IMG/VR virus record: IMGVR_UViG_3300007734_000707
Span: 1 to 47,871 of that record
Source of the DNA: a virus
Direction: 5' to 3' (one strand)
Length of the DNA stretch: 47,871 nt
In this document: positions 39 to 47,647 of the stretch, one piece after another
Position numbering within the stretch: position 1 is the first letter of the stretch
Layout: every line of letters starts with the position of its first letter
Translations under genes and position numbers: made by a program
Notes under the pieces: generated by a model
What the model saw: only the letters and a program-made list of their open reading frames with translations
What the model was told of the DNA's origin: nothing
The model's database searches: none

Positions 39-260
39 ATGGAGCCGCGTGCACACCTAGAACCATCGCACCTCTACGGCCACTGGGGCCACACGCCCTG
101 GCTCCTCCAGATTTTCGGGAAGTCGACACACAGGCGCAAGGTGATCGCGCGGTGTGATGGTGAGGCCGGCAGGTTCAACTGGCAGTACGGCTACAGGTCG
201 ATCTACGGGACCGTGGCGCTTCCGGTGCCGCGCACTACCCCGCCACAAGGTAACCTCTGA
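39..260 (+). CDS. Possible small hypothetical protein at the left edge
   Basis: A 73-residue open frame that stays open to the window edge upstream, so it may be the 3' end of a longer gene. I do not recognise the product and it has no clear motif. No convincing Shine-Dalgarno sequence precedes the ATG. Its TGA stop lies in the spacer of the dispersed palindrome at 250-266, and the next gene starts at 268, which fits a tightly packed operon. It could be a chance frame in GC-rich DNA. Confidence 0.3.
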   Translation: MEPRAHLEPSHLYGHWGHTPWLLQIFGKSTHRRKVIARCDGEAGRFNWQYGYRSIYGTVALPVPRTTPPQGNL

Positions 261-266
261 GGTAAC
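250..266. repeat. Dispersed palindrome, one mismatch
   Basis: GTAACCTCTGAGGTAAC. Directly before the ATG at 268; the right arm serves as its ribosome binding site. Confidence 0.8.
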
Positions 267-267
267 C

Positions 268-570
268 ATGATTACGCCCACCGTCGGCCGCATCGTCTGG
301 TTTCGCGCTAAGCTCCAAGAGGGGCTCCCGCAGGATACGCCGGAGCGCGCGGCGATCGTGGTCGGGGTCCTGGGCGATCGGGCGATCAACGTCCTGGTGT
401 TCGACTTCGACGGCCACGCGGTCCCGATGCTGAACGTCCTTCTTCTGCAGGACGACGACTCGCCGCCGACCGCGGTCAGCTACTGCCAGTGGATGCCGTA
501 CCAGAAGGGCCAGGCGCTCAAGTCCGAGCAGGCGTCCAAATCACCCGCCGCACCAGGAGGCGCCAAATGA
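268..570 (+). CDS. Conserved phage hypothetical protein (TVGRIVWF-type)
   Basis: A 100-residue protein starting MITPTVGRIVWF, with a central beta-rich part and a C-terminal tryptophan motif (CQWMPY). Small phage proteins with a P-T-V/I-G-R-I-V start and a late W are common in proteobacterial phages, but their function is unknown. The ATG directly follows the palindrome at 250-266, whose GAGGTAAC arm acts as the ribosome binding site. The stop overlaps the next ATG by four bases (ATGA). The longer frame starting at 154 is rejected because the start at 268 gives the family-like N-terminus. Confidence 0.8.
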   Translation: MITPTVGRIVWFRAKLQEGLPQDTPERAAIVVGVLGDRAINVLVFDFDGHAVPMLNVLLLQDDDSPPTAVSYCQWMPYQKGQALKSEQASKSPAAPGGAK

Positions 571-791
571 AGGCAGCGTTCGCGATCTACTACCTCGTCA
601 TCGTGGGGCTGAACTCGGAACCGAAGGTCATGCCGCAGTTGGTCTCCAACGCGCGCTACGAGTCGGCGGAGACGTGCGAAGACGCCCGCTTTGAGCGCGA
701 AGCAAATGCGTGGCGTGTGGCGAAGGAAACCTACGGCGAAGACGTGCTCGTGAAAACGATGTGCGACGAAGCGCCGAGTGATCCGGCTTAA
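567..791 (+). CDS. Small secreted or membrane-anchored hypothetical protein
   Basis: 74 residues. The ATG at 567 overlaps the previous stop (ATGA) and has a strong AGGAGG at 555-560. The N-terminus (MKAAFAIYYLVIVGL) is a short hydrophobic stretch like a signal peptide or anchor. Two Cys lie in the mature part (ETCEDA and KTMCDE) and could form a disulphide in the periplasm. No family recognised; the role is unknown. Confidence 0.7.
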   Translation: MKAAFAIYYLVIVGLNSEPKVMPQLVSNARYESAETCEDARFEREANAWRVAKETYGEDVLVKTMCDEAPSDPA

Positions 792-892
792 CAACTTCGG
801 ACGCCTCAACCCGAAAGGGCAGGTCGGGCCCCAACAAGAAAGCTCGGATATGCAGCCCGAGCCGTCCGAATTACGTATTCCCAGAGGTGGCC

Positions 893-1284: not shown

Positions 1285-1307
1285 AGATTTCACGGTGGAG
1301 GTTTGCG

Positions 1308-1505: not shown

Positions 1506-1786
1506 TGGCGACCGACGCAGCACTTCCGGGGCAGAGCGAACTCCCGCTCCCCGAGACCCAGAACGCCCCCGTCCTCCGCGGCGTGGTTGGCCTCATTACG
1601 CCGGCCGAGCTCGCGCTCGCGATCGGCGTCGCCGAGCAGACGCTCTCCGGCTGGCGCAGCGCCGGGACCGGGCCGAATTTCGTGAAGCTCGGTAAGGGCG
1701 TGTTCTACCGCCTCTTCGACATCCAGACCTGGATCGCCGATAGCGTTACCCGCGTGGTAACGAGCGGCGCGAGAAAGCCGGAGTGA
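1505..1786 (+). CDS. Excisionase/AlpA-like helix-turn-helix DNA-binding protein
   Basis: 93 residues. Residues about 31-80 form a MerR/excisionase-like winged HTH: a TPAELALAIGV helix pair, then EQTLSGWRSAGTGPNFVKLG, then VFYR and a W-containing helix (IQTWIAD). The GTGPxFVKLG-x-x-V-x-YR signature is typical of AlpA/Xis-type regulators. It could be the excisionase, a lysis-lysogeny regulator, or the protein that binds the dispersed palindrome; the sequence does not decide. A perfect palindrome copy (1745-1761) lies in its own 3' end, encoded as V-T-R-V-V-T. It overlaps its neighbours by TAATG and GTGA. Confidence 0.75.
   Translation: MATDAALPGQSELPLPETQNAPVLRGVVGLITPAELALAIGVAEQTLSGWRSAGTGPNFVKLGKGVFYRLFDIQTWIADSVTRVVTSGARKPE
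1745..1761. repeat. Dispersed palindrome, perfect copy
   Basis: GTTACCCGCGTGGTAAC. Inside the 3' end of the HTH gene, encoded as V-T-R-V-V-T. Confidence 0.85.
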
Positions 1787-2354: not shown

Positions 2355-2576
2355 ATGCTTCTTGAGGTCAAACGCGACCAGAAATACCCATTCCTGACAC
2401 TGGCGCCGGTCATCGAGGGCACCAAGCCGGTAGAGGTGATTGAGCTGTCCAGCGACGACTTCGCGGACTTCGAGGAGGCGAACCGGAGGTTTGCTGAGTG
2501 GCAGCCCCGGATCTCGGACGCGCCGGCGGTAGAAGTTACCCCTCAAGGTAACTCGTCAGGTCCAAGCCCCGGCTGA
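2355..2576 (+). CDS. Small hypothetical protein at the convergent junction
   Basis: 73 residues from the ATG at 2355, with GGAG at 2345-2348. Beta-rich N-terminal half, then an acidic helix (SSDDFADFEEANRRFAEW). No family recognised. It is the last gene of the rightward left-end operon. Its end overlaps by 21 bases the end of the leftward large terminase gene. The palindrome at 2535-2552 lies in its 3' end, encoded as V-T-P-Q-G-N. Confidence 0.65.
   Translation: MLLEVKRDQKYPFLTLAPVIEGTKPVEVIELSSDDFADFEEANRRFAEWQPRISDAPAVEVTPQGNSSGPSPG
2535..2552. repeat. Dispersed palindrome, perfect copy (spacer 6)
   Basis: GTTACCCCTCAAGGTAAC. At the convergent junction just outside the terminase gene end. 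Confidence 0.85.
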
Positions 2577-5294: not shown

Positions 5295-5825
5295 TCACTC
5301 CTCGTTGTGTTCGTCGCCGTCGTCGTCACCCATATCGTCGGCGACGTGGACGGCTTGCCCCTCGATTACCTTTGAGGGTAACTCCTTCACAATCTTAATT
5401 TTCTTGTCAGCGCCCAGGTTGATCGTGACGCTGAAGCGTTCGCCTACGACGCCTCCACCATCTGGCCGTTCGTTACCCATACCGGCGATCCGGGCGAGCA
5501 GCTTCACGACTTCGGTCTTGGCGCTGAGTAGTTCTTTCGGGTCGTGGATGCGGGCGTTTGCCTCGAGCAGCCACTCTTCGAGCAGGGCGCTCGACTTTAA
5601 TTTTGTCCGCTCGTGCGTGTTGCCGGCGGCTTCCCAGGCGGTGACTTCGCTCTCTAGCAGACGGAGAAAGCGAGGGTCGAGCTTGAGCTTCTCCCAGTCG
5701 CTCGCCGTGAGTTGATTGTTCTTGAGAATAGTTTCGATGCTGTTCAGGTCCATCGCGATTTCGCGAGCGATGCGCAGAAACTGCACGTCGGTCGAATACG
5801 AAACCGGAAGACTATCTGAACCCAT
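5295..5825 (-). CDS. terS: Probable terminase small subunit
   Basis: 176 residues, first gene of the leftward packaging operon. The body is helical (IETILKNNQ, DWEKLKLDPRFLRLLESEV, TKLKSSALLEEWLLEAN, AKTEVVKLLARIAGMG), followed by a beta strand (FSVTINLG) and a very acidic C-terminal tail (DDMGDDDGDEHNEE). I saw no clear classical HTH; the assignment rests on position, size and helical character. It starts 42 bases from the -10 of the leftward promoter at 5867-5895. The palindrome at 5365-5382 lies in its 3' part. Confidence 0.65.
   Translation of the reverse strand: MGSDSLPVSYSTDVQFLRIAREIAMDLNSIETILKNNQLTASDWEKLKLDPRFLRLLESEVTAWEAAGNTHERTKLKSSALLEEWLLEANARIHDPKELLSAKTEVVKLLARIAGMGNERPDGGGVVGERFSVTINLGADKKIKIVKELPSKVIEGQAVHVADDMGDDDGDEHNEE
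5365..5382. repeat. Dispersed palindrome, one mismatch (spacer 6)
   Basis: ATTACCTTTGAGGGTAAC. In the 3' part of the small terminase gene. Confidence 0.75.
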
Positions 5826-5913: not shown

Positions 5914-5930
5914 ATTACCTCACAGGTAAC
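5914..5930. repeat. Dispersed palindrome, one mismatch
   Basis: ATTACCTCACAGGTAAC. Directly before the portal TTG start; in the divergent control region. Confidence 0.8.
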
Positions 5931-9778: not shown

Positions 9779-10834
9779 ATGTCCAAGAAAGCGAAGCAAC
9801 TCGCTCCCGTTGATACCGACGTGAAAATCCCGGCCGCTGTCACTGCCGCCGCCGACAAAGCCGCCGCTCTCCACCAAGAAGCCTACGCAGCTCCCGCCGA
9901 GGCTACACCCGCTCCAGCGCCGGCCGCCGAACCGGCGCCCGCTGCCGCAGCTCCCGCCGAGGCTACACCCGCCGCCGAGCCCGCTCCCGCTCCGGCAGCA
10001 GCCACCCCGGAACCGGCCCCCGCGCCAGTTGTTACCACGAAGGGTAACGACACCTGGGAACACAAATACCTGTCGCTGAAGGGCAGGTTTGACCGCTCCG
10101 AAACCGTTACCCGCGCCCTGAAAGATCAGATCGCCGGCCTCGAGACCGTCATCGCGTCGATGTCGGTTTCAGCGCCGGCCGCCCCGGCGTCTTCCCCGAG
10201 CGCAATTACCGCCGCCGAGCGCGAAGCTTTCGGCGACGACTTCATCAATCTGGCGTCGAAGGTGGCGGCTGAAAAGTTCGCTCCCGAGGTCACGGAGCTC
10301 AAAGCGACCGTAAAAAATCTTACGGAGCGCCTCGAGAGCACGGCCACGAAAATCGGCCAAAGCGATCGAGACCGGATGCACGCCGACCTAACCACGGCCG
10401 TACCGAACTGGCTCGAAGTGAACGAACAAGACGCGTTCAAAGACTGGTTGGCATTGCCAGCGCCGTACTCCAGTGCTATCAAGCTTGACTTATTGAGGGC
10501 GGCATACGCGGCAAATGATACGCCCCGCGTGCTCGCCTTCTTCCAAGGCTTCCTCGCTGAAGAGGCTGCCAAGGTCCCGCAACCCGAGCCCGTACCGACG
10601 CCGCCAGCTCCGCTGGCCGCACCAAAGGTCCCGCTCGAACAGTTCGCGGCGCCAGGCAGAGCCAAGACTGCGGCGGCCCCACCGGCCCCCGTTGAGAAGC
10701 CGATCTTCACCCGCGCCCAAGTTTCGCAGTTCTACGTCGACGTGGCCGCCAAGAAGTGGGTCGGCCGCGAGGACGAGAAAGCACGCATGGACAAAGCGAT
10801 CGTCGATGCAGGCCGCGAGGGGCGTATCCGGTAA
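9779..10834 (+). CDS. Scaffolding protein
   Basis: 351 residues directly before the major capsid gene, the usual place for a scaffold. The N-terminal third is an Ala/Pro-rich linker made of near repeats (APAEATPA, PAPAAEPAPA). A helical coiled-coil-like core follows (DTWEHKYLSLKGRFDRSETVTRA, DQIAGLETVIASM), then LKATVKNLTERLESTATKIG. The C-terminal region has a second Pro-rich linker and a short basic helical end (DEKARMDKAIVDAGREGRIR), as expected for a capsid-binding tail. Start ATG with GGAG upstream. Two palindrome copies are linked to it: 10031-10048 inside and 10840-10857 just after its stop. Confidence 0.75.
   Translation: MSKKAKQLAPVDTDVKIPAAVTAAADKAAALHQEAYAAPAEATPAPAPAAEPAPAAAAPAEATPAAEPAPAPAAATPEPAPAPVVTTKGNDTWEHKYLSLKGRFDRSETVTRALKDQIAGLETVIASMSVSAPAAPASSPSAITAAEREAFGDDFINLASKVAAEKFAPEVTELKATVKNLTERLESTATKIGQSDRDRMHADLTTAVPNWLEVNEQDAFKDWLALPAPYSSAIKLDLLRAAYAANDTPRVLAFFQGFLAEEAAKVPQPEPVPTPPAPLAAPKVPLEQFAAPGRAKTAAAPPAPVEKPIFTRAQVSQFYVDVAAKKWVGREDEKARMDKAIVDAGREGRIR
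9887..9971 (+). repeat. 60-bp period repeat in the scaffold linker
   Basis: The bases GCAGCTCCCGCCGAGGCT and the following ACACCCG occur at about 9887-9911 and again at about 9947-9971. They encode the AAPAEATP-type linker. This is a low-complexity expansion in a disordered linker and could vary in length between relatives. Confidence 0.7.
10031..10048. repeat. Dispersed palindrome, perfect copy (spacer 6)
   Basis: GTTACCACGAAGGGTAAC. Inside the scaffold gene, as V-T-T-K-G-N. Confidence 0.85.
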
Positions 10835-10839
10835 ACCCG

Positions 10840-10857
10840 GTTACCCTGTGGGGTAAC
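10840..10857. repeat. Dispersed palindrome, perfect copy (spacer 6)
   Basis: GTTACCCTGTGGGGTAAC, with outer bases also paired (GG/CC). Between scaffold and major capsid genes. Confidence 0.85.
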
Positions 10858-10880: not shown

Positions 10881-11870
10881 ATGTCATTTCCCGTAGCGTC
10901 CGGTGTTACCACCCCGGCGATCTACCCGGCAGGTTCCACTGGCAATGGCATGTCCGCTGCCGGTTTCATTCCCGAGATCTGGTCGGGCAAGCTGGTCGAA
11001 AAGTTCTACGCGTCGACCGTGCTCGCGGCGATCTCGAACACTGACTACGAAGGCGAGATCAAGAACCAGGGCGACAAGGTCAAGATCCGCACGAAGCCGA
11101 CGATCGCGATCAGCGATTACAAGGCCGACGGCGTTCTGGCTTTGCAGCGTCCGGTTGGCGCCACCATCGAGCTTGCCATCGACCAGGGCAAGTACTTCAG
11201 CGTCATCCTCGACGACGTGATGGAAGTTCAGAGCGATCTGAACTCCATGTCGATGTGGGCCGACGACGCCTCCGAGCAGTTCAAGATCACGGTCGATACC
11301 GCCGTGCTCCTGGGCATCCTCAACGGCGCCACCGCCACCTACAACCGCGGTCTGACCGCTGGCAAGATCTCCGCCGGCATCAACCTCGGTGTGACTGGCA
11401 CGCCGCTGGCTCTCGTCAACGCTGATCCGGGCGCAGGTGAAGTCGAAGTCCTCGACATGATCCTTCGTCTCGGCCAGGCGCTCGACGAGCAGAACATCCC
11501 GGAAACCGGCCGCTGGCTTGTGCTGCCGACCTGGGCTGCCACGCTCGTGAAGCGTTCGGAGCTCCGCCAGGCGTACCTGTCGGGCGACAGCGTCTCGATG
11601 CTGCGTAACGGCCGCATCGGCATGATCGACCGGTTCACGCTCTACACGTCGAACCTCCTGCCTGCCGGCGTTGCCGGTGGTCTGGCGGCCGGCGAGACGG
11701 CGGTCTACGCGGGCCATGCCCACGGTCTGACCTTCGCTTCGCAGTTCACCAAGACCGAGACCCTGCGTTCGGAACAGACCTTCGGCAACATCCTGCGCGG
11801 CTTGCAGGTGTACGGCTACAAGGTCGTGGACGGCCAGGCGCTCACTCAGGCGATCATCTCGAAGGCGTAA
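10881..11870 (+). CDS. Major capsid protein
   Basis: 329 residues, HK97-fold coat protein by order, size and pattern. It begins with a short region ending in GFIPEIWSGKLVEKFYAS, the usual start of P22/N4-type coat proteins. It then has a spine-helix and P-domain-like pattern (KVKIRTKP, LDDVMEVQSD, DMILRLGQALDEQNIPETGRWLVLPTWAATLVKRSELRQA), and a C-terminal QTFGNILRGLQVYGYKVVDGQAL. Start ATG with AAGAGG upstream and codon use typical of a highly expressed gene. The TAA stop is part of a palindrome copy (11867-11883), and a strong hairpin follows. Confidence 0.9.
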   Translation: MSFPVASGVTTPAIYPAGSTGNGMSAAGFIPEIWSGKLVEKFYASTVLAAISNTDYEGEIKNQGDKVKIRTKPTIAISDYKADGVLALQRPVGATIELAIDQGKYFSVILDDVMEVQSDLNSMSMWADDASEQFKITVDTAVLLGILNGATATYNRGLTAGKISAGINLGVTGTPLALVNADPGAGEVEVLDMILRLGQALDEQNIPETGRWLVLPTWAATLVKRSELRQAYLSGDSVSMLRNGRIGMIDRFTLYTSNLLPAGVAGGLAAGETAVYAGHAHGLTFASQFTKTETLRSEQTFGNILRGLQVYGYKVVDGQALTQAIISKA

Positions 11871-11883
11871 CCTTCGAGGTAAC
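11867..11883. repeat. Dispersed palindrome, one mismatch
   Basis: GTAACCTTCGAGGTAAC. Contains the TAA stop of the major capsid gene and precedes the terminator. Confidence 0.8.
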
Positions 11884-14051: not shown

Positions 14052-14354
14052 ATGAAGCACCTAGCCAAGTATGTGCAGGCTTCCGAGGAGCGAAAGCGGT
14101 ACGCGATCGACTATTCGGAGTGGCTCGACAGCGGGGAGACGATCGCGACGGTCGCCTTTGAGGTCGAAACCAACGTCGGCGCCACAATCCCTCTGCTCAT
14201 CGACGGCTACGCGATCAACGGCGACGACGATGGGCTCATTCTTTTTGTTAGCGGCGGAGACGATGGGGAAACCTATCGCGTGCTAGTCACCATTACGACG
14301 TCTGGTGGCCAGACCAAGGAAGACTTCATCGTGTTCGTCATCAGTAACCCGTAA
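14052..14354 (+). CDS. Phage fibre-tail adaptor protein
   Basis: 100 residues, AAAGGAAG before the ATG. The sequence begins KYVQASEERKRYAIDYSEWLD, then GETIATVAFEV, and ends with a beta part (LILFVSGGDDGETYRVLVTI, TSGGQTKEDFIVFVI). The K-R-Y-x-I-D-Y-S-x-W-L-D-S-G-E-T pattern with a late GGxDGxTYxVxVxxTTSGGQxKED is typical of the small fibre-tail adaptor proteins that precede fibre genes. It is a beta-sandwich likely joining a fibre to the tail. The stop is followed directly by the double palindrome at 14344-14373. Confidence 0.75.
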   Translation: MKHLAKYVQASEERKRYAIDYSEWLDSGETIATVAFEVETNVGATIPLLIDGYAINGDDDGLILFVSGGDDGETYRVLVTITTSGGQTKEDFIVFVISNP

Positions 14355-14373
14355 GGGTTACCTATAAGGTAAC
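14344..14373. repeat. Double palindrome with three half-sites
   Basis: A perfect copy GTTACCTATAAGGTAAC at 14357-14373 shares its left arm with an outward-facing repeat at 14344-14360 (GTAACC-N6-GGTTAC). Between the fibre adaptor and the next fibre gene. Confidence 0.85.
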
Positions 14374-15013: not shown

Positions 15014-17370
15014 TGCTTCCACTCATTGGAGGTTTCGGATCATCGGGTGCGTATCAGGTACAGCGGTGCCTACGCTTCCGCTCGCCGTCGTCGGCGTACG
15101 CGAGCTTCACCCCAGGAGCCTCTGGGCGCGACGCGTGGACGTTTGTTGTGGGCGTCAAGCGCGCCACTCTCAGCGTCGCTATGCACATTCTGTCTGCCGA
15201 TACGAGCAGCGAAGACGCCATCTTTTTCGACACGAACAACAAGCTGTGCGTCACCATCGCCGGAACTGCCCGCCTGGTGTCTACCGCGGCGTTCCGCGAC
15301 CCCTGCGCTTGGGGGCTTCTGCGCGTGGTCTATGACGCGGCCAACGGCACGAACAACCTGAAGCTCCGCGTGTTCTGGAACGACGTCGAGATTACCGCGT
15401 GGGATACCGACACGCGCAGCGGCATCACGACAGGCACCGCGAAGATCAACCACACCGTCGCGCACAACCTAGGTCGCAACGCCAACGGCTCCACGTCGTA
15501 CTACGACGGCTACATGGCCGAGCCGGCGCTGAAGAGCTCGGTTGATGCTGCGTGGGGCACCACTACGGATACAGTCACTAACATCCCAGGTCCGGTGATG
15601 CCGCTAGGCGCGCTCTGGTTCTTGGATTTCTCAGACAATTCTGGAACGACGTCCACGACGCTCGGCAAGGATCGCTCTGGCAACGGCAACAACTGGACGC
15701 CGAACAATTTCAGCGTGTCTGCTGGGTTGACCAACGACAGCTTCACCGACTCGCCGACGAACTATGGAAACGACTCGGGCGCTGGCGGAGAGGTGCGTGG
15801 AAACTTCGCAGTTATGAACTGGCTGGACCGACCGGCTGGTACAGGCGCGTCTCCAGCATTTTCTGATGGCAACCTCACCGTCGCCAACACGTCCGACAAC
15901 CTCAACATGCCCTGCCGGTCGACGCTTGGTTTTAGGTCGGGAAAAATTCGGTTCGAGCAGTACATCGTCACCACCAAAGCGGTTGAGGGCACTGGCGGCT
16001 ATCACGCGGGTGGTTTTTGCCCGGAGACCGCTCCACTGAATAACCCTCCCGGCGCGAACGCGGGTGGCGGCGTCGGTGGATTTGGGCGCGACGGAACCGT
16101 CAACGCCGACGGCGTGCAGACGTACTCCACTGGGGTGTCAACGTGGGCGCAGGACGATATTTACACCCACTTGCTCGACATCGACAACGGCAAATACTAC
16201 CTCGCTAAGAACGGTACTTGGCTGAACTCTGCTAACCCGGACGCTGGCACCGGCTACGTAGCGACCATCACCACAACCGGAAAAGAATGGTACGCCTGCG
16301 CTGAGCACGCGCGCACCGCCGAGAAGAGCACGTTCAACTTCGGCCAGCGCCCGTGGCAGAGCACGCCCGCGAACTGCACGTCGTTCAAGGCGATGTGCAC
16401 CCAAAACAAAACAGCGCCGTCGATCCTGCGCGCCGACGACTACTTCGCGATCAACCTTCGCACCGGAACGGGCGCGTCGTTCAACGTCACTGGCAAGCGT
16501 TTCCAGCCGGACCTAGTGTTTGGCAAGGGCCGCAGCGGCACGACCGATTGGTACGCCTATGACGCCACTCGCGGCGTGCAGAAGGATCTTGGCTTCAATC
16601 TCGCGACCGACGAAACCACGCAGGCGCAGGGCGTGACCGCGTTCAACAGCGACGGGTTCTCCGGCGGCACACTCGCCAAGCTGAACACGAACGCGGCAAC
16701 CTACGTCAACTACCTAATTAAAAAGGGCGCGCACTTCGACATCGTTACCTACACGGGCAACGGATCGAACCGCACCATTGCCCATGCGCTGGGCGTCGCG
16801 CCGTCGCTCGTAATCATCAAATCGCGCACGACCGCAGGATCTGACACCGGTTGGCCCTTGTGGAGCAACGGTCTCGCCAACACCGAATACATTCTGATGA
16901 ACACGGCTGGCGTGAAGGTTACTGGAGCGACCACGTTCTGGAACAGCACGTCTCCCACCAGCAGCGTGTTCAGCCTCGGCACCGCGGCTGAGGTCAATGC
17001 GAACGGTGACACGTATGTCGCTTACGTGTTCGCGGATACCCCCGGCTTCTTCAAGGCCGGCGCTTTCACAGGAAATGCGAACGCCGATGGCCCGTTCGTG
17101 CCGCTCGGCTTCCGACCCAGCCTGGTCTCGATCAAGAACCCATCCGGCACCAATCGTTGGTGGGACGTCGACGGGGTTCGTAATTCGTACAATCCGGTTG
17201 GCCTTGAAATCGACTTCTCAGCGACGACTGCCGAGGCGTCGACCACGGGCATCGACATCGTCTCCAACGGGTTCAAGCTTCGCGAGCTGGGCGCCGCGCT
17301 CAACTCCGCGAACGCCATGTTGTACTTCGCTTTCGGCGAGTTCCCCTTCAAATACGGCCGCGCGCGGTAA
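15013..17370 (+). CDS. Large tail fibre or receptor-binding protein
   Basis: 785 residues. The N-terminal part (to about 200) looks like a concanavalin/LamG-type module (CLRFRSPSSAYASFTPGASG, DAWTFVVGVKRATLS, GLLRVVYDAANGTNNLKLRVFWN, GRNANGSTSYYDGYMAE). The centre resembles a SPRY-like module (GGYHAGGF, GVGGFGRDGTVNADGVQTYS, YTHLLDIDNGKYYLAKNGTW). The C-terminal part has repeated units of the type DIVTYTGNGSNRTIAHALG with PSLVIIKSRT, seen in many phage fibres (DUF7483-type). It is probably the host-recognition protein. Overlaps the previous gene by TAATG. Confidence 0.75.
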   Translation: MLPLIGGFGSSGAYQVQRCLRFRSPSSAYASFTPGASGRDAWTFVVGVKRATLSVAMHILSADTSSEDAIFFDTNNKLCVTIAGTARLVSTAAFRDPCAWGLLRVVYDAANGTNNLKLRVFWNDVEITAWDTDTRSGITTGTAKINHTVAHNLGRNANGSTSYYDGYMAEPALKSSVDAAWGTTTDTVTNIPGPVMPLGALWFLDFSDNSGTTSTTLGKDRSGNGNNWTPNNFSVSAGLTNDSFTDSPTNYGNDSGAGGEVRGNFAVMNWLDRPAGTGASPAFSDGNLTVANTSDNLNMPCRSTLGFRSGKIRFEQYIVTTKAVEGTGGYHAGGFCPETAPLNNPPGANAGGGVGGFGRDGTVNADGVQTYSTGVSTWAQDDIYTHLLDIDNGKYYLAKNGTWLNSANPDAGTGYVATITTTGKEWYACAEHARTAEKSTFNFGQRPWQSTPANCTSFKAMCTQNKTAPSILRADDYFAINLRTGTGASFNVTGKRFQPDLVFGKGRSGTTDWYAYDATRGVQKDLGFNLATDETTQAQGVTAFNSDGFSGGTLAKLNTNAATYVNYLIKKGAHFDIVTYTGNGSNRTIAHALGVAPSLVIIKSRTTAGSDTGWPLWSNGLANTEYILMNTAGVKVTGATTFWNSTSPTSSVFSLGTAAEVNANGDTYVAYVFADTPGFFKAGAFTGNANADGPFVPLGFRPSLVSIKNPSGTNRWWDVDGVRNSYNPVGLEIDFSATTAEASTTGIDIVSNGFKLRELGAALNSANAMLYFAFGEFPFKYGRAR

Positions 17371-18968: not shown

Positions 18969-18973
18969 GGTCA

Positions 18974-33005: not shown

Positions 33006-33018
33006 CCCCAAAGGTAAC
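33002..33018. repeat. Dispersed palindrome, one mismatch
   Basis: GTAACCCCAAAGGTAAC. Contains the stop of the polyvalent gene and precedes the ATG at 33020. Confidence 0.8.
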
Positions 33019-33527: not shown

Positions 33528-33543
33528 GGCTAGAGCCCTAGCC
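33528..33543. terminator. Short hairpin between convergent genes
   Basis: GGCTAG pairs with CTAGCC across a four-base loop. It lies between the rightward virion operon and the leftward integrase and covers the integrase stop codon. No T run on either side, so its terminator function is weak or absent; it may instead mark a rearrangement scar. Confidence 0.35.
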
Positions 33544-35045: not shown

Positions 35046-35482
35046 GACGTTACCTCCGAGGTAATGGGCTGAAGCTCTATCGTGTAGCCCTTGCGGTGGT
35101 ACGCAGAGACGTTGGCGCGCAGGGGCACCAGCTTCTTCCGCAGCGCGGAAATAATCACGCGTGTCGTGTTCGTGCGGCAGGGCACGTTGCCGTGCAGGGC
35201 GTGGTTGAGTGCCTCGACCGAGACCGGTTCTTTGCCAGCCTCCAGCATCGCGTGGACGAGCACCGCTTCCGACGGCGTGACACGGATCGTCACACCGCCG
35301 CGCATCAAGATGTTCGTGTTGATGTCGACGGTTAGTCGCTCGGAAGAGAGGCGCGTGCTCAACGCCCGGATCAGCGTGGCAGCGGACCCCGCCGTCTCCT
35401 GGTTGAGCTCGCCCTTGTCGAGACGATCGAGCACGGTCTGAACATTCACTGGCATCTCGGAAAACTGCATCGTTGGGTACAT
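35042..35482 (-). CDS. OmpR/PhoB-type winged-helix DNA-binding protein
   Basis: 146 residues from the ATG at 35482, which overlaps the primase stop (ATGA). The C-terminal 90 residues read VTIRVTPSEAVLVHAMLEAGKEPVSVEALNHALH, then TRVIISALRKKLVPL and end with RKGYTIEL. This is the OmpR/PhoB C-terminal winged-helix pattern (LT-x-x-E, V-x-x-LR-x-KL, x-GYxI). No receiver domain precedes it, so it is a stand-alone transcription regulator. A palindrome copy lies in its end (35049-35065). Candidate binder of the dispersed palindrome. Confidence 0.75.
   Translation of the reverse strand: MYPTMQFSEMPVNVQTVLDRLDKGELNQETAGSAATLIRALSTRLSSERLTVDINTNILMRGGVTIRVTPSEAVLVHAMLEAGKEPVSVEALNHALHGNVPCRTNTTRVIISALRKKLVPLRANVSAYHRKGYTIELQPITSEVTS
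35049..35065. repeat. Dispersed palindrome, one mismatch
   Basis: GTTACCTCCGAGGTAAT. Near the 3' end of the winged-helix gene and just before the TTG start of the cupin-like gene. Confidence 0.8.
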
Positions 35483-38502: not shown

Positions 38503-39549
38503 TTATGCCGCCGCCGGACCCATCAGCTCTTCGAGCTTCTTGTCGAGATCGTCGTCGAGGGCCTTCGTGTCAGCCACCTGCACGGGCGGAGCCGCCACGG
38601 CAGGGGCACCAGCACCGAACCCGCCAGCGGCCGGAGCCGCAGCAGGGTTGGCCGCCGGAGCCGGTGCAGTTACCGCAGGGGTAACCACAGCGGCCGGAGG
38701 CTTCGCAGTGGCGGTACGCCGCGCGATTGCGGCGGGTGTCGGAGTGCCGCCCGCAGGTGCCTGAGCCGGAGCGGGCGTTTCAAACGCCAGACCAGCGGGC
38801 TGCTCCGCGGGCGGTGACGTCTCGTACTCGGTCTCGGCGAGGATGCGATCGACGCGCGCGTCGCCGCGGAGCGCCATCACCTTCGTCGCTTCTTCGTCGG
38901 TCAGCGGACGGATCGGAGCGAACAGCAGCTTCGGATACGCATCCGCCGGATCGAACGACATGCGCGTCGCCACGCCGTAGTAGGGGAAGCCGAGCTTGCG
39001 CACGCCTTCACCATACGTCGCCACTTCGTTGAGCGAGCCAGCCGGCACGCGCAGCATCATGGGGCCGCCGAGCATTTCGTTGTTGATGTCGGCGAGCGGG
39101 ACGACAGCGAGGCGCTTCGAGTCGGAGCACGCCTTGCCCTTGCCAGCGGTGCCGTCCTGCTTGACGGCAGAGCCGAACGCATTGCGAGGGCATGTCGCGC
39201 AGACGTTCGCCTGTTTCTTTGTGGACGTCGGATCGGGCGTGACGCCGTTGGCGGAGAAGCAATCCGGTGCCGCCTTCGTGCCTTCCTCGAAGCCCTTCTC
39301 GTACCAGACTTTCGAGATCGCCTGAGACGCCTTGAGGATGACGACTTCGATCGAGCCGCGAGGGCCGTCGCCGTCTTCACGCATGAGCACGGTCTCGTTG
39401 CCCTTGTAGCGGGTCGACCAGACCTTGCCCTTGATGCCGATCATGCCGTAGCCGCCGGAGATGCCAGCGCCGAGATCGTTCTCGGCCTGCACCCCGGCGA
39501 ACACGGTCGAGACCGCGCCGAATTGCTCTTTGATGGTCAGTGCGTTCAT
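38503..39549 (-). CDS. Zinc-binding ssDNA-binding-like protein
   Basis: 348 residues. Cys97, Cys117, Cys120 and Cys141 form a likely zinc site (CFSANGVTPD, CATCPRNAFG, ACSDSKRL). The front part is beta-rich (GYGMIGIKGKVW, TVLMREDGDGPRGSIEVVIL), the tail is an Ala/Pro linker, and the last residues are acidic (DDDLDKKLEELMG). This is the plan of a phage ssDNA-binding protein with an acidic C-terminal tail, and its location next to the primase and DNA polymerase genes supports it. One perfect palindrome (38669-38685) lies in its Pro-rich part, encoded as V-T-P-A-V-T. Confidence 0.6.
   Translation of the reverse strand: MNALTIKEQFGAVSTVFAGVQAENDLGAGISGGYGMIGIKGKVWSTRYKGNETVLMREDGDGPRGSIEVVILKASQAISKVWYEKGFEEGTKAAPDCFSANGVTPDPTSTKKQANVCATCPRNAFGSAVKQDGTAGKGKACSDSKRLAVVPLADINNEMLGGPMMLRVPAGSLNEVATYGEGVRKLGFPYYGVATRMSFDPADAYPKLLFAPIRPLTDEEATKVMALRGDARVDRILAETEYETSPPAEQPAGLAFETPAPAQAPAGGTPTPAAIARRTATAKPPAAVVTPAVTAPAPAANPAAAPAAGGFGAGAPAVAAPPVQVADTKALDDDLDKKLEELMGPAAA
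38669..38685. repeat. Dispersed palindrome, perfect copy
   Basis: GTTACCGCAGGGGTAAC. In the Pro-rich tail of the ssDNA-binding-like gene. Confidence 0.85.
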
Positions 39550-39982: not shown

Positions 39983-39999
39983 GTTACCTCGTAGGTTAC
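39983..39999. repeat. Dispersed palindrome, one mismatch
   Basis: GTTACCTCGTAGGTTAC. Directly before the ATG at 39981. Confidence 0.75.
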
Positions 40000-40455: not shown

Positions 40456-42020
40456 GCGAGCGCCGCCTCGTTGTTCGCCTCGAAGAGATCGAGGAGGTGG
40501 TCCTGAACTTGTTTGTTCTGGCGCAGCAGGCCGTACACCCGCTTCTCGACCGGAGAGCCCTGCAGGCAGAGGATCTGCTGTTTGTGCTTCTGGCCGACGC
40601 GTCGGATGCGCCGGTTTGCCTGGTCGAAGATCTCGAGCGAGGTCACCGGCCCGAACCAGATTATGGTGTCGGCCGCGGTGAGCGTGATGCCGTGCGCAAG
40701 GCACTGCGGATGCGCCGCCAGGACGTGATACTTCGACGTGTTCTGGAAGATGTTGAAGATCTCGGACCGCTCGGTCATCGACGTGTCGCCCGACACGCAG
40801 GCGTGCTCTATGCCCTCGGCCTTGAGCGCCTCGGAGATGCCGGCGAGCGCGTGCTTGAACGGCACGAACACCAGCACCTTGCGCGAGGTCGAGTTCACCG
40901 CGTCGATCATCGCCGTGATCCGCACGTCGTTGTCGAGCGGGGCGACGCTGCGATCCTTCTGGTAGACCCAGCCGACCGACACCTGCAGCAGCTTGTTCAT
41001 CACGGCGCCGGCGTTGGCGGCGGTGATCTCGCCCGACTGCATCAGCGCGTAGGCGTGGTCGGCCAGCGCCTTGTAGACTTTCTTCTGGCGCGGCCCCATC
41101 TCGACGTCGACCTGCCGCTCGATCAGCTCGGGCAGCTCTACGACGTCGTCCAACGTGAAGCGCACCGCTGGCTGGAGCGCCGCGAACGCACGCTCGGCCG
41201 CGTCTGACTTGGGGACGTACTTGAATTGCGAGACCTTGAGCATCAGCTCGTCGCGGAACCGTCCGAAGTATTTCGGCACGGTCTTCGGCGTGATGATGCT
41301 GGCCTGAGCCCACGCGTCAGTGGGGAGATGCGGGATCGGACCGCCCGTCATGCCCCAGGCCCACTTCATCCCGGCCGCGTACTTCTTCATGACCTTGGTG
41401 CGTTGCGACTGGCCGTTGCGGAACACTGCGAGCTCGTCGATCCCCAGCACGTCAATGTCGGGGCGGTTCATCAGCTCCTCGAACATGACCTTGAGGCCGT
41501 CGTGGTTGATGATGAAGATGTCGACGTCCGTCTCGGCGAGGCGCGCCATGCGGCGCTTCTTGTCGCCGTGGAGCACCGCGCATTTTCTATGGGGCAGGGT
41601 GGCGAACACTTCCTGCGCCCAAGTGAACTTCAGGGTCGAGAGCGGCGCGAAGATAATCAGCTTGCCGCAGAGGTTGTTACTTCGCAGGTAATCCCACGCC
41701 CACAGCATCGACTTGGTCTTGCCGGTGCCCATATCGTTGAGGACGTAGGCGCGCTCGTTCAGCGTCAGGAGAGCGCAGGTTTTCTTCTGCACGTCGAACG
41801 GCGGCAGGAACCCCGGCCAGGTGTAGTGCGTCAGGATCGGCGCCGGCACGTCGAACCCCATGCGCCGGAGCATGAACGTCTCGACAGCGCCGTGCGGCAG
41901 CAGCAGGTGAGGCCCACCATTGAAGTCGATCGGTGTGGCGGACGGGAACAGGTTGCTGACCTCGGCCGCCGAAGGCACGCAGACCAGCTTGCGCTTGGCG
42001 TTGACTGTGACTGGGATCAT
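40452..42020 (-). CDS. SNF2-type DEAD/DEXH helicase
   Basis: 522 residues. Motif I (Walker A) is at about 97-103 (MGTGKTK), motif II at about 195-198 (DELA instead of DEAH/DEAD), motif III near 225 (MTGGPIP), and motif V/VI late (QANRRIRRVGQ). It is a superfamily 2 helicase of the SNF2/DEXH kind used by phages in replication or recombination. ATG start; the gene overlaps the VRR-NUC gene by ATGA. Confidence 0.9.
   Translation of the reverse strand: MIPVTVNAKRKLVCVPSAAEVSNLFPSATPIDFNGGPHLLLPHGAVETFMLRRMGFDVPAPILTHYTWPGFLPPFDVQKKTCALLTLNERAYVLNDMGTGKTKSMLWAWDYLRSNNLCGKLIIFAPLSTLKFTWAQEVFATLPHRKCAVLHGDKKRRMARLAETDVDIFIINHDGLKVMFEELMNRPDIDVLGIDELAVFRNGQSQRTKVMKKYAAGMKWAWGMTGGPIPHLPTDAWAQASIITPKTVPKYFGRFRDELMLKVSQFKYVPKSDAAERAFAALQPAVRFTLDDVVELPELIERQVDVEMGPRQKKVYKALADHAYALMQSGEITAANAGAVMNKLLQVSVGWVYQKDRSVAPLDNDVRITAMIDAVNSTSRKVLVFVPFKHALAGISEALKAEGIEHACVSGDTSMTERSEIFNIFQNTSKYHVLAAHPQCLAHGITLTAADTIIWFGPVTSLEIFDQANRRIRRVGQKHKQQILCLQGSPVEKRVYGLLRQNKQVQDHLLDLFEANNEAALA
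41676..41692. repeat. Dispersed palindrome, two mismatches
   Basis: GTTACTTCGCAGGTAAT. In the helicase gene. Confidence 0.5.
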
Positions 42021-43162: not shown

Positions 43163-43866
43163 CCGCCCACCCCGTTGTGAGGGCACTGCTTCACGGGGCA
43201 CCACGAGCGACAGAGCCCGCCGGGCTTCGCCGGGTACGACGTCGTGTTGTGCGCGTGCTCCAGCGCCTGGATGCGTGGCCAGAGCCCTCGCCACATCGCC
43301 GGCATGTCGTCCGGCGTGAACATCTGGTCGGTCGTTGCGTTCTCCTTGAGCCATGCGAACGTCGACTTGACCTTCTTGACCTCGGGGAACTTCGCGAACA
43401 CGCAGGCCGCGGCGAGCGCGAGCTGGCACGAGTCCTCGACGATCTTGCCGGTCTTCCAGTCGATGATCCAAGCAACGGGGCCGTGTACCTTAATGACGTC
43501 GCCCTTGGCCCGGAACCACACGCCGGCGTCGAAGTAGCCGCACGACGCGAACTCTCGCGTCAGAGCGAGCTTGGCCTCGACGTGGATGTTACCTTGCCCG
43601 GTAATAACGCGCTGCGCCCACGGCTCGTAGATCGCCATGCTTTTGGGTAGAGCGATGCGCTTCTCGCCGAGCCGGTGCTCGAAGCCCGCGTGGACTTGGT
43701 TGCCCCAGAGCAGGTTGTCGCTCTCTTCCTCCTTGACCTTCTGCGGGTCACCCTTCGGAAGAATGTCGACGTGATACGATTTCTTCGGGCACGCCTCGAA
43801 GTTTTTGAGCTTCGAGTAGCTCCACGTAAATGGCTTCGGCCCGAGGCGGGTCGTTACGGCTACCAT
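43159..43866 (-). CDS. RecB/Cas4-like PD-(D/E)xK nuclease
   Basis: 235 residues. N-terminal WSYSKLKNFEACPKK with Cys26, then LLWGNQVH (H59), E97 and D113 (YFDAGVW), then D136-x-K138 (IIDWKTGK) and Q148. These are the RecB-family motifs. Late Cys at about 219, 223 and 228 (CRSWCPVKQC), together with Cys26, give four ligands, so a 4Fe-4S site as in Cas4/AddB-type nucleases is likely. It may process DNA ends for recombination. A weak half palindrome (ATTACTTC) lies just before the ATG. Confidence 0.88.
   Translation of the reverse strand: MVAVTTRLGPKPFTWSYSKLKNFEACPKKSYHVDILPKGDPQKVKEEESDNLLWGNQVHAGFEHRLGEKRIALPKSMAIYEPWAQRVITGQGNIHVEAKLALTREFASCGYFDAGVWFRAKGDVIKVHGPVAWIIDWKTGKIVEDSCQLALAAACVFAKFPEVKKVKSTFAWLKENATTDQMFTPDDMPAMWRGLWPRIQALEHAHNTTSYPAKPGGLCRSWCPVKQCPHNGVGG
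43588..43605. repeat. Dispersed palindrome, one mismatch (spacer 6)
   Basis: GTTACCTTGCCCGGTAAT. In the RecB-like nuclease gene. Confidence 0.7.
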
Positions 43867-44272: not shown

Positions 44273-44686
44273 TCAGGCCGCTTTGGCTTCGGGCTCGCTC
44301 GGAGCGACAACCGCCACCTTCGTTACCCCAAGGGTAACCGCGTTGATTTTGTCTTTGTCCTCGGGCGCCAGCCAATAGCCGAGTCCGCGGCGCGACTGGA
44401 TCACGCTGGTGCCGTCGGGTCGGATGATGCCGTGGTCTTTGAGGACGGCGCGCAGCCGGTGGATCGCAACCTTCGCGTCAGTCGCGATGTTGAGCCGCAG
44501 CGTTATCATTTCGGGTGTGACGTTGGGCGTCGACAGCAGGCACCCAAGCAGACTGCAGAGCGATGTCGAGAGCCGGAAGGCGACCCCGAGATTGTCGTCA
44601 TTGAGGCCGAGAGCTTTTTCGAGGTCTGCGATGCGGGAGTTGGCCACGGCCAAGTCGGCCGTCAGTTTGGCGACGGATGCCGTCAT
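44273..44686 (-). CDS. OmpR-type winged-helix protein with N-terminal coiled coil
   Basis: 137 residues from the ATG at 44686 with AAGAGGG upstream; the longer frame from 44869 would begin inside a palindrome and is rejected. The N-terminus is a short coiled coil (LTADLAVANSRIADLEKAL). The second part is a winged-helix motif (VTPEMITLRL, AKVAIHRLRAVLKDHGI, then SRRGLGYWLAP), like the C-terminal domain of OmpR regulators and like the protein at 35042. It ends NAVTLGVTKVA with a perfect palindrome copy (44322-44338). First gene downstream of the palindrome-rich control region, so it is the best candidate for its regulator. Confidence 0.75.
   Translation of the reverse strand: MTASVAKLTADLAVANSRIADLEKALGLNDDNLGVAFRLSTSLCSLLGCLLSTPNVTPEMITLRLNIATDAKVAIHRLRAVLKDHGIIRPDGTSVIQSRRGLGYWLAPEDKDKINAVTLGVTKVAVVAPSEPEAKAA
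44322..44338. repeat. Dispersed palindrome, perfect copy
   Basis: GTTACCCCAAGGGTAAC. In the 3' end of the second winged-helix gene, as V-T-L-G-V-T. Confidence 0.85.
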
Positions 44687-44773: not shown

Positions 44774-44802
44774 TTGATACTTGGCTGTTACCTTGAAGGC
44801 AA
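44774..44802 (-). promoter_or_regulatory. Leftward sigma70-like promoter overlapped by a palindrome
   Basis: Minus strand TTGCCT (44802-44797), a 17-base spacer, then TATCAA (44779-44774). The imperfect palindrome 44787-44803 covers the -35 and part of the spacer, the typical place for a repressor site. It would drive the 44273 gene and the operon after it, with about 80 bases of leader. Confidence 0.5.
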
Positions 44803-44803
44803 G
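44787..44803. repeat. Dispersed palindrome, two mismatches, over a -35
   Basis: GTTACCTTGAAGGCAAG. Covers the -35 of the candidate promoter at 44774-44802. Confidence 0.65.
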
Positions 44804-44849: not shown

Positions 44850-44865
44850 GTTACCCCAAGGTAAC
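44850..44865. repeat. Dispersed palindrome, perfect arms (spacer 4)
   Basis: GTTACCCCAAGGTAAC. In the non-coding control region. Confidence 0.8.
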
Positions 44866-44911: not shown

Positions 44912-44929
44912 GTTACCTTGCAGGGTATC
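44912..44929. repeat. Dispersed palindrome, one mismatch (spacer 6)
   Basis: GTTACCTTGCAGGGTATC. In the non-coding control region. Confidence 0.75.
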
Positions 44930-44988: not shown

Positions 44989-46887
44989 CTACTTGGCGTC
45001 GCCATACGTTTTGCCTGAGCCGACTTCAGCCTTCAGCGGCAAGTCAGCCGCCCACGCCGGCCGCTTCGCCATCTCTTCGAGGATGATCGCCTTGAGCTGC
45101 GGCACTAATTCGATCGGGCAGACGTACACCAGCTCGTCATGCGCCTGCAGGTTCAGCCACAGGCCGGCGTCCTTGACACGCCGTTGGATGCGGACCGCCG
45201 CGTCCATCGTGAGGATGCGCGCGAGCGCCTGCACGATGTTCTCCATGAAGGCGCCGCCGTAGAGCCGCTTCGGCTTTCCGCCGTAGGTGTACGACCAGCC
45301 GTCACGGCTGTAGGCCAGGTCGTGGTATTTGAGCCTCAGTCCGCTGGGTAGAAGCACTGCTCCCTTCTCGAAGGTCACGGGCCCATAGGTGAACGGTTGT
45401 CCGTTGGAGAGCGCCGGGATGCCCTGCTCGCCGAGGATCTTCCAGCCGGCGGGGATCTCGGGATACTTGACAACGCGATACGTGTGCACGACGCCCTGCG
45501 CGACTTCGTCGGTCAGCACGATGGACGTGCCAAGGTACTTGCGCGAGTCGACCTTCACAGTGGTCTGGAACTTCACCCACCCGACGCCGAAGCCTAGGCC
45601 GAGGATGCCGGTCTTTCCGACGAACCCCATCGACACCTGTTCAGGCTGATCGACGAGCTTCCGGTTGACCGGACACTGGAACACCTCCGACGCGAAGGCC
45701 GAGTAGACGTCCTCGTTGTTGGCGAACGCCGCCATGAGCTCCGGCTGCGCGCATATCCACGCGACGATGCGGGCCTCGATCTGCGATGCGTCACCGGCGA
45801 CGACTTCATAGCCATCGGGCGCCGTGAGTGCGCGACGAAGCGGGCTCTTGCGCCCGAGGTTCTGGAGGTTGAGCTTCCATGCGCCGCCGAGGCGATGCGT
45901 GTGAGCTGCACTAAAATTGAGCGGCACTGGCATGAGCGCCGCGTTGCCCTGATCGGGCCACCACAGGCGCGAGATTTTGATGAACCTCTCGGTGCGCGTC
46001 TCTTCCAGCGTAGACTTGTGGCCGAGCCTGGCGCCAACCAGCGCCTGGACCGACGGGTTCTCGTCGTCAGCTAGCTCGATGAATTGCGGGTCGCTCTTGG
46101 CGAAGGCGAATGTCTCCTTGCCGGTGGTCAGCGAAATCTTCATGGGCGGATCGACGCCTAACCCCTGAAGTAACGCAGCGAATTGATCGTTCGACATCAG
46201 CGCCGGCGCCTTACCGTTGGCGTCGTACTGGAGGCCCGCCTGCGCGAGAAGCTGCGCCTTCGACGCCTTCACTTCGTTGAGATGCTCAGCGAGCACAGTC
46301 TGGTCGAGTTGGAAGCGCGGCTGCAGCCCGCAGCGAAGCACCATGTCGAGGACCGCGAGCTCGCTGATCGGGAACAGCTTGTCCTGCGTGACGAGCTTGT
46401 CGAAGATCGCCATCGCCAGGTCGTCGTCGTTGCAGGAATAGTCCTGATATTCTTTGTAGAGCGCCGGATGCGCCTTGATCGCGGCAAGGTTCATGCCAAT
46501 GACATTCGCCACCGTGCCGCCCTTGGCGCCGAGGTTCAGGTGAGTTGCCACGGACTTGAGCGACACGCTCCGGAGGACGTGCCCGAGGACAGCTCGCGCA
46601 ATGCTCATGGAGCAAACAAGAAGCCGCGGGCGGAAGTTGTGGCGGTACGACAGGATGCAGCCGTCGAACAACATGTTGTGCGACAGGTACCCGGCGTTCT
46701 TGTCGGCCTGCGCGATGTAGCGCGGGAAGTCCGGGCCCTCGACCCAGTAGGGTTTCTGTCCCGGATCTTTCACGGCGCAGCCGATCATCTCGAACCGTGG
46801 ATCGAGAACGTACTCGACGGGCGTCATTTTACGGAGTGAGTACTCCTTGTCGTAGTACGTCTCGAAGTCCAGGCCGACGATCTTCAT
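44989..46887 (-). CDS. Family A DNA polymerase with 3'-5' exonuclease
   Basis: 632 residues. Exonuclease motifs: DFETYY (D7, E9), SHNMLFD (about 69-75) and DYSCNDDD (about 149-156). Polymerase motif A is VAGDASQIEARIVAW (D366), motif B is in the RKLVDQPEQVSMGFVGKTG to GLGFG region (about 413-440), and motif C is AHDEL (H583, D584, E585). It replicates the phage genome. The ATG at 46887 follows a degenerate palindrome (46893-46910) that overlaps the upstream gene's stop. Confidence 0.95.
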   Translation of the reverse strand: MKIVGLDFETYYDKEYSLRKMTPVEYVLDPRFEMIGCAVKDPGQKPYWVEGPDFPRYIAQADKNAGYLSHNMLFDGCILSYRHNFRPRLLVCSMSIARAVLGHVLRSVSLKSVATHLNLGAKGGTVANVIGMNLAAIKAHPALYKEYQDYSCNDDDLAMAIFDKLVTQDKLFPISELAVLDMVLRCGLQPRFQLDQTVLAEHLNEVKASKAQLLAQAGLQYDANGKAPALMSNDQFAALLQGLGVDPPMKISLTTGKETFAFAKSDPQFIELADDENPSVQALVGARLGHKSTLEETRTERFIKISRLWWPDQGNAALMPVPLNFSAAHTHRLGGAWKLNLQNLGRKSPLRRALTAPDGYEVVAGDASQIEARIVAWICAQPELMAAFANNEDVYSAFASEVFQCPVNRKLVDQPEQVSMGFVGKTGILGLGFGVGWVKFQTTVKVDSRKYLGTSIVLTDEVAQGVVHTYRVVKYPEIPAGWKILGEQGIPALSNGQPFTYGPVTFEKGAVLLPSGLRLKYHDLAYSRDGWSYTYGGKPKRLYGGAFMENIVQALARILTMDAAVRIQRRVKDAGLWLNLQAHDELVYVCPIELVPQLKAIILEEMAKRPAWAADLPLKAEVGSGKTYGDAK

Positions 46888-46892
46888 GTACG

Positions 46893-46910
46893 ATTACCTT
46901 TCGAGGTTAC
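46893..46910. repeat. Dispersed palindrome, two mismatches (spacer 6)
   Basis: ATTACCTTTCGAGGTTAC. Before the DNA polymerase ATG; contains the stop of the upstream gene. Confidence 0.65.
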
Positions 46911-47629
46911 GCGGCGCGGATTTCACCGAGGGCGCCGCCGTCGTGGACCGCTTCGCCACCGCAAATCTCCACGGTGACGGGCGGCACCGCGCGGGCTTCC
47001 GGCTCTTCGGGCAGCAGCATGGCGCCGGCGATGAGACCTGACGTCATCTTGCAGGCGGCACGCACTTCGGCCGGCATCGGCGGAAGCGAGCGGGGCACCT
47101 TGAAGTCTCGGATGCGGTCCGCGAAGTCGGCTGTGTGTTCTTGGAGCGAAGCGATCGCTACGAGCGACGGCCATAGGAACCTGATCTGATGCTTCGACTC
47201 GCAGTGAGATCCCATCCACTCCATGAGCGCGGCGGCCGTGGCGAAGTCGTAGCGGATCTTGAGCTGTTGGTTGGTCCACTCGACCAGCCGCGTCACGAGC
47301 TCAGGCGGGGCCTTCTTCAAGACTGTGTGGTTTCGCGGTGACAGCGGCGGATCTCCGCCGTCCGGCATCCGGATGACGGTGAAGTTGTAGTTGACGAACT
47401 CAGCGTCGAGCCGGCCATCCTTGAGGTCTCCGCTGTGCGCGCCGCCGTTCGAGGTGACGTCAGCGACTTCAGACGCCGACTTCAGGATCGGCCAGTGCTC
47501 CTTGGGCGCGAACAGCGCCAGGAACTCGTCGTGTGTGAAGCCGAGCGGGAACAGGCGCTCCATGCGCGGCCGCAACTGCGTCAGGTTTTGCTGCAAGTAG
47601 TAGATCTTGTTTCCGAGTGGGCGTGCCAT
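46907..47629 (-). CDS. Hypothetical protein upstream of DNA polymerase
   Basis: 240 residues from the ATG, preceded by a degenerate palindrome (47631-47647) whose GAAGTAACA is the ribosome binding site. Helical N-terminus (NKIYYLQQNLTQLRPRMERLFPLGFTHDEFLALF), then a middle with an aromatic/basic pattern and a long helix (VTRLVEWTNQQLKIRYDFATAAALMEWMG). No motif of a known enzyme. Probably an accessory replication or regulatory protein; function unknown. Confidence 0.7.
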   Translation of the reverse strand: MARPLGNKIYYLQQNLTQLRPRMERLFPLGFTHDEFLALFAPKEHWPILKSASEVADVTSNGGAHSGDLKDGRLDAEFVNYNFTVIRMPDGGDPPLSPRNHTVLKKAPPELVTRLVEWTNQQLKIRYDFATAAALMEWMGSHCESKHQIRFLWPSLVAIASLQEHTADFADRIRDFKVPRSLPPMPAEVRAACKMTSGLIAGAMLLPEEPEARAVPPVTVEICGGEAVHDGGALGEIRAA

Positions 47630-47630
47630 T

Positions 47631-47647
47631 GTTACTTCCGAGGTAAG
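47631..47647. repeat. Dispersed palindrome, two mismatches
   Basis: GTTACTTCCGAGGTAAG. Directly before the ATG of the 46907 gene. Confidence 0.65.

Follow-up and report, generated by a model that had tools for sequence, protein, structure and literature searches.

Cluster A mycobacteriophages such as L5 and TipsytheTRex carry stoperators, asymmetric sites that follow the direction of transcription (PMC6550527, PMC9283540). Here, we describe an array of palindromic sites, GTTACC-N4-6-GGTAAC, dispersed over a 47,871-base virus record (IMG/VR IMGVR_UViG_3300007734_000707, analyzed at its full length and hereafter called the window), which is linear, apparently incomplete and 62.5% G+C, with about 6% intergenic DNA. 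Dispersed palindromic operators for one phage protein are also known in the conserved inverted repeats of the phiC31 repressor, although these are fewer than in the array, belong to a temperate phage whose early region contains most of them and are not known to be accompanied by an ATPase/VWA cassette. We report that the array recurs in related phages, a family of bacterial viruses from soil, is present and absent together with an early-gene cassette and has its best candidate binder in a ~240-amino-acid (aa) protein family of that cassette, encoded in an early region that the window's contig lacks.

Like cluster A stoperators, the array consists of at least 20 copies of one short site over a phage genome, many of them in short gaps; its genome-specific variants drift with the DNA-binding protein (here, the candidate), and a site precedes that protein's own gene. 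The many dispersed copies typical of cluster A are found here too, with 29 in the window and 6-81 in relatives. Unlike cluster A, the site is an inverted repeat with equal arms and has no orientation, as a preceding sequence-only reading of the window had held in calling it palindromic and different. About half of the copies lie deep in genes, there can be up to 81 of them, and most carriers have no recognizable integrase. Where the cluster A repressor combines a helix-turn-helix (HTH) with a stoperator domain, the candidate binder has no HTH match and lies within an ATPase/VWA cassette. Given its symmetric site, and with no known repressor found, the array is not a member of the cluster A stoperators. 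We place it, as a variant, among dispersed-operator systems, while seeing a substantial chance that it belongs elsewhere. As far as could be found, it would be a genome-wide dedicated DNA-binding system not described before: the literature searched, which left most subscription papers outside its coverage, gave no account of this array and no paper on its relative RHph_TM27A.

The sequence-only reading had claimed nine perfect copies of the palindrome and about twelve with one mismatch. A scan of the window recovered all nine where they had been placed, together with 13 one-mismatch sites and 7 non-overlapping two-mismatch sites, 29 in total (Table 1). Among the sites with at most one mismatch, the spacer is 5 bases in 14, 6 in 7 and 4 in 1; spacers of 0-3 and 7-17 gave none, and spacers of 18 and 19 one each. 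Control words yielded 3 (direct repeat), 1 (everted) and 0 (reversed word). Under a null model that shuffled synonymous codons within genes and bases between them (n = 200), perfect sites averaged 0.10 (maximum 2), compared with 9 observed, and sites with at most one mismatch 1.08 (standard deviation 0.90, maximum 4), compared with 22, so that the same-codon comparison proposed earlier does not reproduce the array. The strongest 4+4 dyad in the whole window is TTAC-N7-GTAA, with 12 occurrences against 0.14 expected. Chance and coding bias are thus rejected by the codon shuffles and control-word scans, and the window's array is confirmed as real; the earlier estimate had assumed equal base composition, and its conclusion stands at the actual G+C content. 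The copies do extend over all modules, genes of both strands, gaps and stops, as had been described. Of the 29, 11 fall between genes, where the 6% share of intergenic sequence would predict 1.8; genic and intergenic counts are approximate because the gene calls for the window and the unannotated relatives were made in this analysis.

The portal, terminase, capsid, DNA polymerase, primase and helicase genes of the window match those of a group of short-tailed phages (podoviruses). By portal tree and identity, its nearest relatives are two Bradyrhizobium contigs (~70%), and the closest named ones are Rhizobium phages RHph_TM27A, TM27B, TM29 and TM3_14A (portal 60% identical); a near-identity DNA search with the first 25 kb of the window against phage records gave no match. 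We compared 23 related podovirus genomes or large contigs and found a strong dispersed palindrome in 20, from 6 sites in a partial prophage to 81 in G023. It takes the form TTAC-N7-GTAA or TTAC-N8-GTAA in 18 of the 20, with a phage-specific fifth base that is mostly C, T in G017, G in G019 and A in G018; the other two palindromes are TTCCCTAC-N2-GTAGGGAA in G006 and TTACACA-N3-TGTGTAA in G007. G006 also carries a second dispersed palindrome, GGGGCG-N3-CGCCCC, whose five perfect copies are confined to 52.9-59.4 kb (52905-59412; L071 12905-19412). G002, G005 and G020 have no dispersed palindrome array, and these three nest within the array-bearing clade. GGTCC, GGCC and ACCGGT palindromes in G002, G003 and G005 were rejected as arrays, being phase-locked 9-bp repeats that resemble collagen-type coding sequence.

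Positions are conserved between close relatives, a feature by which the sequence-only reading had proposed to judge the array. In G003 and G004, which are 81% identical, 22 of 24 and 20 of 23 aligned sites are kept, with an arm identity of 0.91-0.93 against 0.78-0.79 in the flanks; at greater distances, site positions turn over. The sites are under selection. They occur about once per 0.8-3 kb and, in 8 of 14 genomes (one of them the window), are spaced more evenly than expected at random (p < 0.05); the 81 sites of G023 have a coefficient of variation of 0.58. When 17 genomes are pooled, co-directional gaps contain 2.49 sites per kb and divergent gaps 1.90, followed by the last 60 bp of genes (1.18), convergent gaps (0.89) and gene middles (0.41); roughly half of the sites are located well within genes. 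The preference for gene ends arises in part because the GTAACC arm can supply a stop codon, as it does in at least two places in the window (11867 and 33002).

The cassette tracks the array. A DUF2201 VWA/metallopeptidase protein is found in 16 array-bearing genomes, an AAA+ ATPase of phrog_1297 in 15 and the ~240-aa family in 14, and none of the three in any of the array-less genomes. Those 14 are all the TTAC-type genomes whose contig covers the early region; the TTAC-type genomes without the gene are partial contigs only (the window, G001, G012 and G021). A six-frame profile search for the family was negative in G002, G005, G020, G006, G007, the window, G001 and G021. The early region that matches ~18-31 kb of the 60.9-kb RHph_TM27A, whose family member lies at 18372-19100, is missing from the window, which explains why the cassette is not found there. 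In the Bradyrhizobium contig G011, the family member is encoded at 36055-36807. Among 37 entries carrying the family, a few of which are the same or near-identical contigs, 36 show TTAC-N7/8-GTAA; L256, a piece of 11.7 kb in which 3 sites occur, is the exception. In a prospective test, G028 was picked for its array (L148) and the ~240-aa gene was then found there. G029 has the VWA gene, no ~240-aa gene detected in its 39.7 kb and no array. The ~240-aa gene adjoins the ATPase and VWA genes in six genomes (G003, G004, G016, G018, G019 and G022), and a site lies 5-75 bp upstream of it in 8 of 14 genomes, compared with 17% of other genes (p 0.0008).

The cassette's ATPase and VWA proteins are homologs of N4 gp24 and gp25, the AAA ATPase and VWA-like pair of Schitoviridae, and in the relatives the phrog_1297 ATPase gene adjoins the DUF2201 VWA gene. 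In contrast with the array phages, none of five N4-like genomes carrying the ATPase shows a comparable dispersed palindrome; the VWA protein is present in LIT1, G7C and RHEph22, the N4-like phages whose annotations were read far enough. Because these genomes and G029 have no array, the ATPase/VWA pair alone does not imply one, whereas the ~240-aa family does. In RHEph22 (L281-L284), an N4-like Rhizobium phage, TGGATCCA occurs in 14 bins against 2.4 expected. A comparable pairing is found in bacterial MoxR-vWA ternary systems, where an AAA+ ATPase and a VWA co-chaperone are joined by a variable third component (PMC7159879). In those bacterial systems the third component is VMAP, iSTAND, FtsH or similar, whereas in the cassette it is a phage protein associated with a DNA array. 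Motifs and the PHROG name are the basis for calling the cassette ATPase AAA+, and its likeness to MoxR systems lies in the AAA+/VWA pairing.

Within the ~240-aa family, members with NQRKLIS are associated with TTACCG-N3-CGGTAA and members with KANISK with TTACC[TC]-N4-[GA]GGTAA. In four phages with TTACG, TTACA or TTACT, residues are changed relative to TTACC members in the corresponding helical stretch (NQRKLISTLRT or KANISKLRQ). Across the aligned sequences, the site variant matches the protein variant; the recognition helix itself is a guess, since with so few deviants a ranking of all alignment columns does not pick this stretch out. The ~240-aa protein has no Pfam HTH match (and no Pfam relative), no PHROGs match and no sequence relative in the PDB. 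Its AlphaFold2 model is all-helical (predicted local distance difference test, pLDDT, 83.8). The best fold comparison (VIA-align Z 6.6 over 59 residues of the C-terminal helices) was judged not meaningful, and BFVD returned two good matches only, the phage proteins A0A7S5UQP1 (64% identity) and A0A6J5KV99 (26%).

The sequence-only reading had proposed that one dimeric phage protein binds all copies and had named three proteins of the window for the role. The first part fits: symmetric arms, a fixed spacer, the lack of RNA-type compensation (below), site conservation and the joint loss of array and cassette all support a phage-encoded dimer that would bind double-stranded DNA with sequence specificity. 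The named proteins were rejected, as they do not track the array. The product of 1505-1786 is HTH_17/excisionase-like, and the initial protein comparison gave it one relative (L021). Array-less G002 and G005 also encode the OmpR-type winged-helix kind of protein to which 35042-35482 belongs, and 44273-44686 has relatives in few array-bearing phages. Both 35042-35482 and 44273-44686 encode OmpR-type winged helices that lack a receiver domain; the latter was recognized by eye and from weak relatives.

We consider the following explanation somewhat probable as a whole. One phage-encoded protein, most likely the ~240-aa all-helical early protein, would bind the palindromes as a dimer on double-stranded DNA, with a specificity that evolves together with the sites. 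Once bound, the protein would most likely form a roadblock at which RNA polymerase pauses or stops, limiting expression of its own gene and of other early genes; remodeling or removal of the protein would then fall to the ATPase/VWA pair. We infer direct binding by the ~240-aa protein from comparison of sequences, and the roadblock from the preference for gaps and gene ends and from the sites before the candidate binder's own gene. Remodeling is suggested by analogy with AAA+/VWA chaperone pairs (PMC7159879).

Several observations weigh against this explanation. The co-occurrence of the array with the ~240-aa family is partly shared ancestry, the residue covariation rests on four deviant phages with no one helix singled out when all columns are ranked, and the ~240-aa model has no known DNA-binding fold, Foldseek against the PDB giving nothing at E <= 0.001. 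In G006 and G007, an unrelated family, weakly DUF3150-like in one member, sits between the ATPase and VWA genes; 9 of 10 loci with this DUF3150-like family have a phage-specific dispersed palindrome, several starting with TTAC. G006, G007 and most other DUF3150-like loci have dispersed palindromes without the ~240-aa family, which is the main weakness of the binder's identification. Profile comparison found no homology between the two families, and the DUF3150-like model is weaker (pLDDT 73.4). The DUF3150-like family may be a second binder; alternatively, the outer TTAC is read by some component that the two groups share, and a shared binder is possible because several sites at DUF3150-like loci begin with TTAC.

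The deep-genic half of the sites and their evenness also count against the roadblock, since genome organization fits them equally with transcription control. The same protein might thus coat or bridge the phage genome so as to compact it, keep it apart from host DNA, protect it, or serve its replication or packaging. The ATPase/VWA pair would drive the complex to assemble or move, and transcription would be affected, if at all, only secondarily. This would agree with sites in all modules and both orientations, with the lack of a recognizable integrase or ParB in most array-bearing genomes and with the distribution of perfect GTTACC-N5/6-GGTAAC sites in two Bradyrhizobium genomes (1 in 8.7 Mb and 4 in 7.9 Mb), where 4 of 5 lie on phage contigs and the fifth on an unexamined contig. 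We nevertheless find this reading, the chief rival, rather unlikely, if worth serious attention, because gaps and gene ends are preferred 2.5- to 6-fold, sites lie upstream of the putative binder gene and, in the related phage G007, every site is in the early region, with 7 of 9 intergenic. A broader proposal we put forward tentatively: a DNA-binding protein of a new fold on 20-80 fairly even, phage-specific palindromes may work with the AAA+ ATPase and the VWA protein as a genome-marking machine that organizes, protects or selectively expresses phage DNA, its site code drifting between phages. A perfect site also lies at 712-729 of G012 contig C166, a second contig of Bradyrhizobium sp. 139 and perhaps another prophage piece.

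A classical stoperator system, in which an HTH immunity repressor from among the HTH or winged-helix proteins of the window keeps the prophage silent, could draw on the presence of such proteins and on signs of lysogeny. The window encodes a recombinase-like protein at 33530-34423 (PHROG integrase, E 1e-15), whose relative (59475-60497) is carried by the nearest relative G011 on C42, a whole phage-sized contig from a Bradyrhizobium isolate, and the prophage-fragment-like G012:C111 joins host-type genes without sites to phage genes with six. Yet the two winged-helix proteins do not follow the array, the site is symmetric where stoperators are asymmetric and aligned with transcription (PMC6550527, PMC9283540), and PF00589 and PF00239 had no match in 21 records, including TM27A with its more than 60 sites. 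Most array-bearing genomes are therefore not recognizably temperate, although this absence is not proof, because PF00589 also misses the window's own recombinase-like gene. On these grounds a purely prophage-silencing role is doubtful, and we hold the stoperator explanation improbable. ParB partition (a ParABS/SopB-type centromere) was rejected as well, PF02195 likewise having no match in the 21 records, of which the window and some others are incomplete. That a host protein binds the sites, the phage exploiting or mimicking a host regulon, would accord with site variants that differ among phages possibly of different hosts; it is very improbable given that perfect sites are so scarce in Bradyrhizobium and nearly all on phage contigs, and that the array accompanies a cassette of phage genes and has disappeared in part of a clade of close relatives. 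Least credible of all are RNA hairpins acting in mRNA, for instance by hiding or exposing Shine-Dalgarno sequences or as processing sites. Several intergenic sites do overlap or adjoin a Shine-Dalgarno region (for example, 33002 and 39983), but one-sided arm changes inside genes give G.U 106 times and A.C 116 times on the sense strand, and two-sided changes are Watson-Crick in 12 cases and not in 17. With neither a G.U preference nor a compensatory excess, the target is double-stranded DNA rather than RNA, and the hairpin reading was rejected on this pattern. Sites in divergent gaps and deep inside genes also speak against it, as does the 2-base spacer in 27 of 28 G006 sites, where the center is usually a pyrimidine-purine step.

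Taken together, these findings would provide the ~240-aa family, which has no assigned function, with a DNA target that can be deduced from the genome and tested. They also suggest a possible context for the ATPase/VWA pair of N4 gp24/gp25, which is widespread in phages and for which we found no described role. Whole-genome arrays beyond actinobacterial temperate phages, in genomes without recognizable integrases, would either widen the stoperator idea or point to another use. The natural site and protein variants (TTACC, TTACG, TTACA and TTACT, with spacers of 5 and 6) form a ready set for studying how specificity shifts at dozens of sites together.

Table 1. Palindromic sites GTTACC-N4-6-GGTAAC in the window. 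Sites have no strand; gene coordinates are those of the window.
Position	Mismatches	Spacer	Context
250..266	1	5	over stop of 39-260
1745..1761	0	5	inside 1505-1786
2535..2552	0	6	inside 2355-2576
5365..5382	1	6	inside 5295-5786
5914..5930	1	5	upstream of portal gene; intergenic in our gene calls
10031..10048	0	6	inside 9779-10834
10840..10857	0	6	intergenic, upstream of major capsid gene
11867..11883	1	5	GTAACC arm gives TAA stop of 10881-11870
14344..14361	2	6	end of 14052-14354
14357..14373	0	5	intergenic, overlaps site 14344..14361
16744..16761	1	6	intragenic
17604..17620	0	5	intragenic
19840..19856	1	5	intragenic
22078..22095	2	6	intragenic
23976..23993	2	6	intragenic
26640..26656	1	5	inside 25401-33005
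31393..31409	1	5	inside 25401-33005
33002..33018	1	5	GTAACC arm gives TAA stop of 25401-33005; just before start at 33020
35049..35065	1	5	end of 35042-35482
38669..38685	0	5	inside 38503-39549
39983..39999	1	5	between 39568-39981 and 39996-40199
41676..41692	2	5	intragenic
43588..43605	1	6	intragenic
44322..44338	0	5	inside 44273-44686
44787..44803	2	5	intergenic
44850..44865	0 (perfect arms)	4 (only such)	intergenic cluster of three sites
44912..44929	1	6	intergenic
46893..46910	2	6	gap upstream of DNA polymerase gene
47631..47647	2	5	just upstream of 46907-47629

Other genes of these phages are recorded here in their own right. The window encodes a cysteine dioxygenase-like protein at 34596-35045 (phrog_4786, E 1e-50), a possible auxiliary metabolic gene, and, within the structural module, a 2534-aa protein at 25401-33005 with a PF18823 inorganic pyrophosphatase domain (E 2.6e-51). 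A DNA repair exonuclease family protein (phrog_704) is encoded at 4036-5292; among the first relatives, only G004 has one. In alignment A1, which comprises early-region proteins, one member has a match to the Acb2/Tad1 hairpin domain PF24729 (E 1.3e-6) and is a possible counter-defense protein, and one has a weak match to GcrA (PF07750). TM27A (L005) carries two small paralogous families (21874-25035 and 23280-23956) of four copies each, mostly in the early region.

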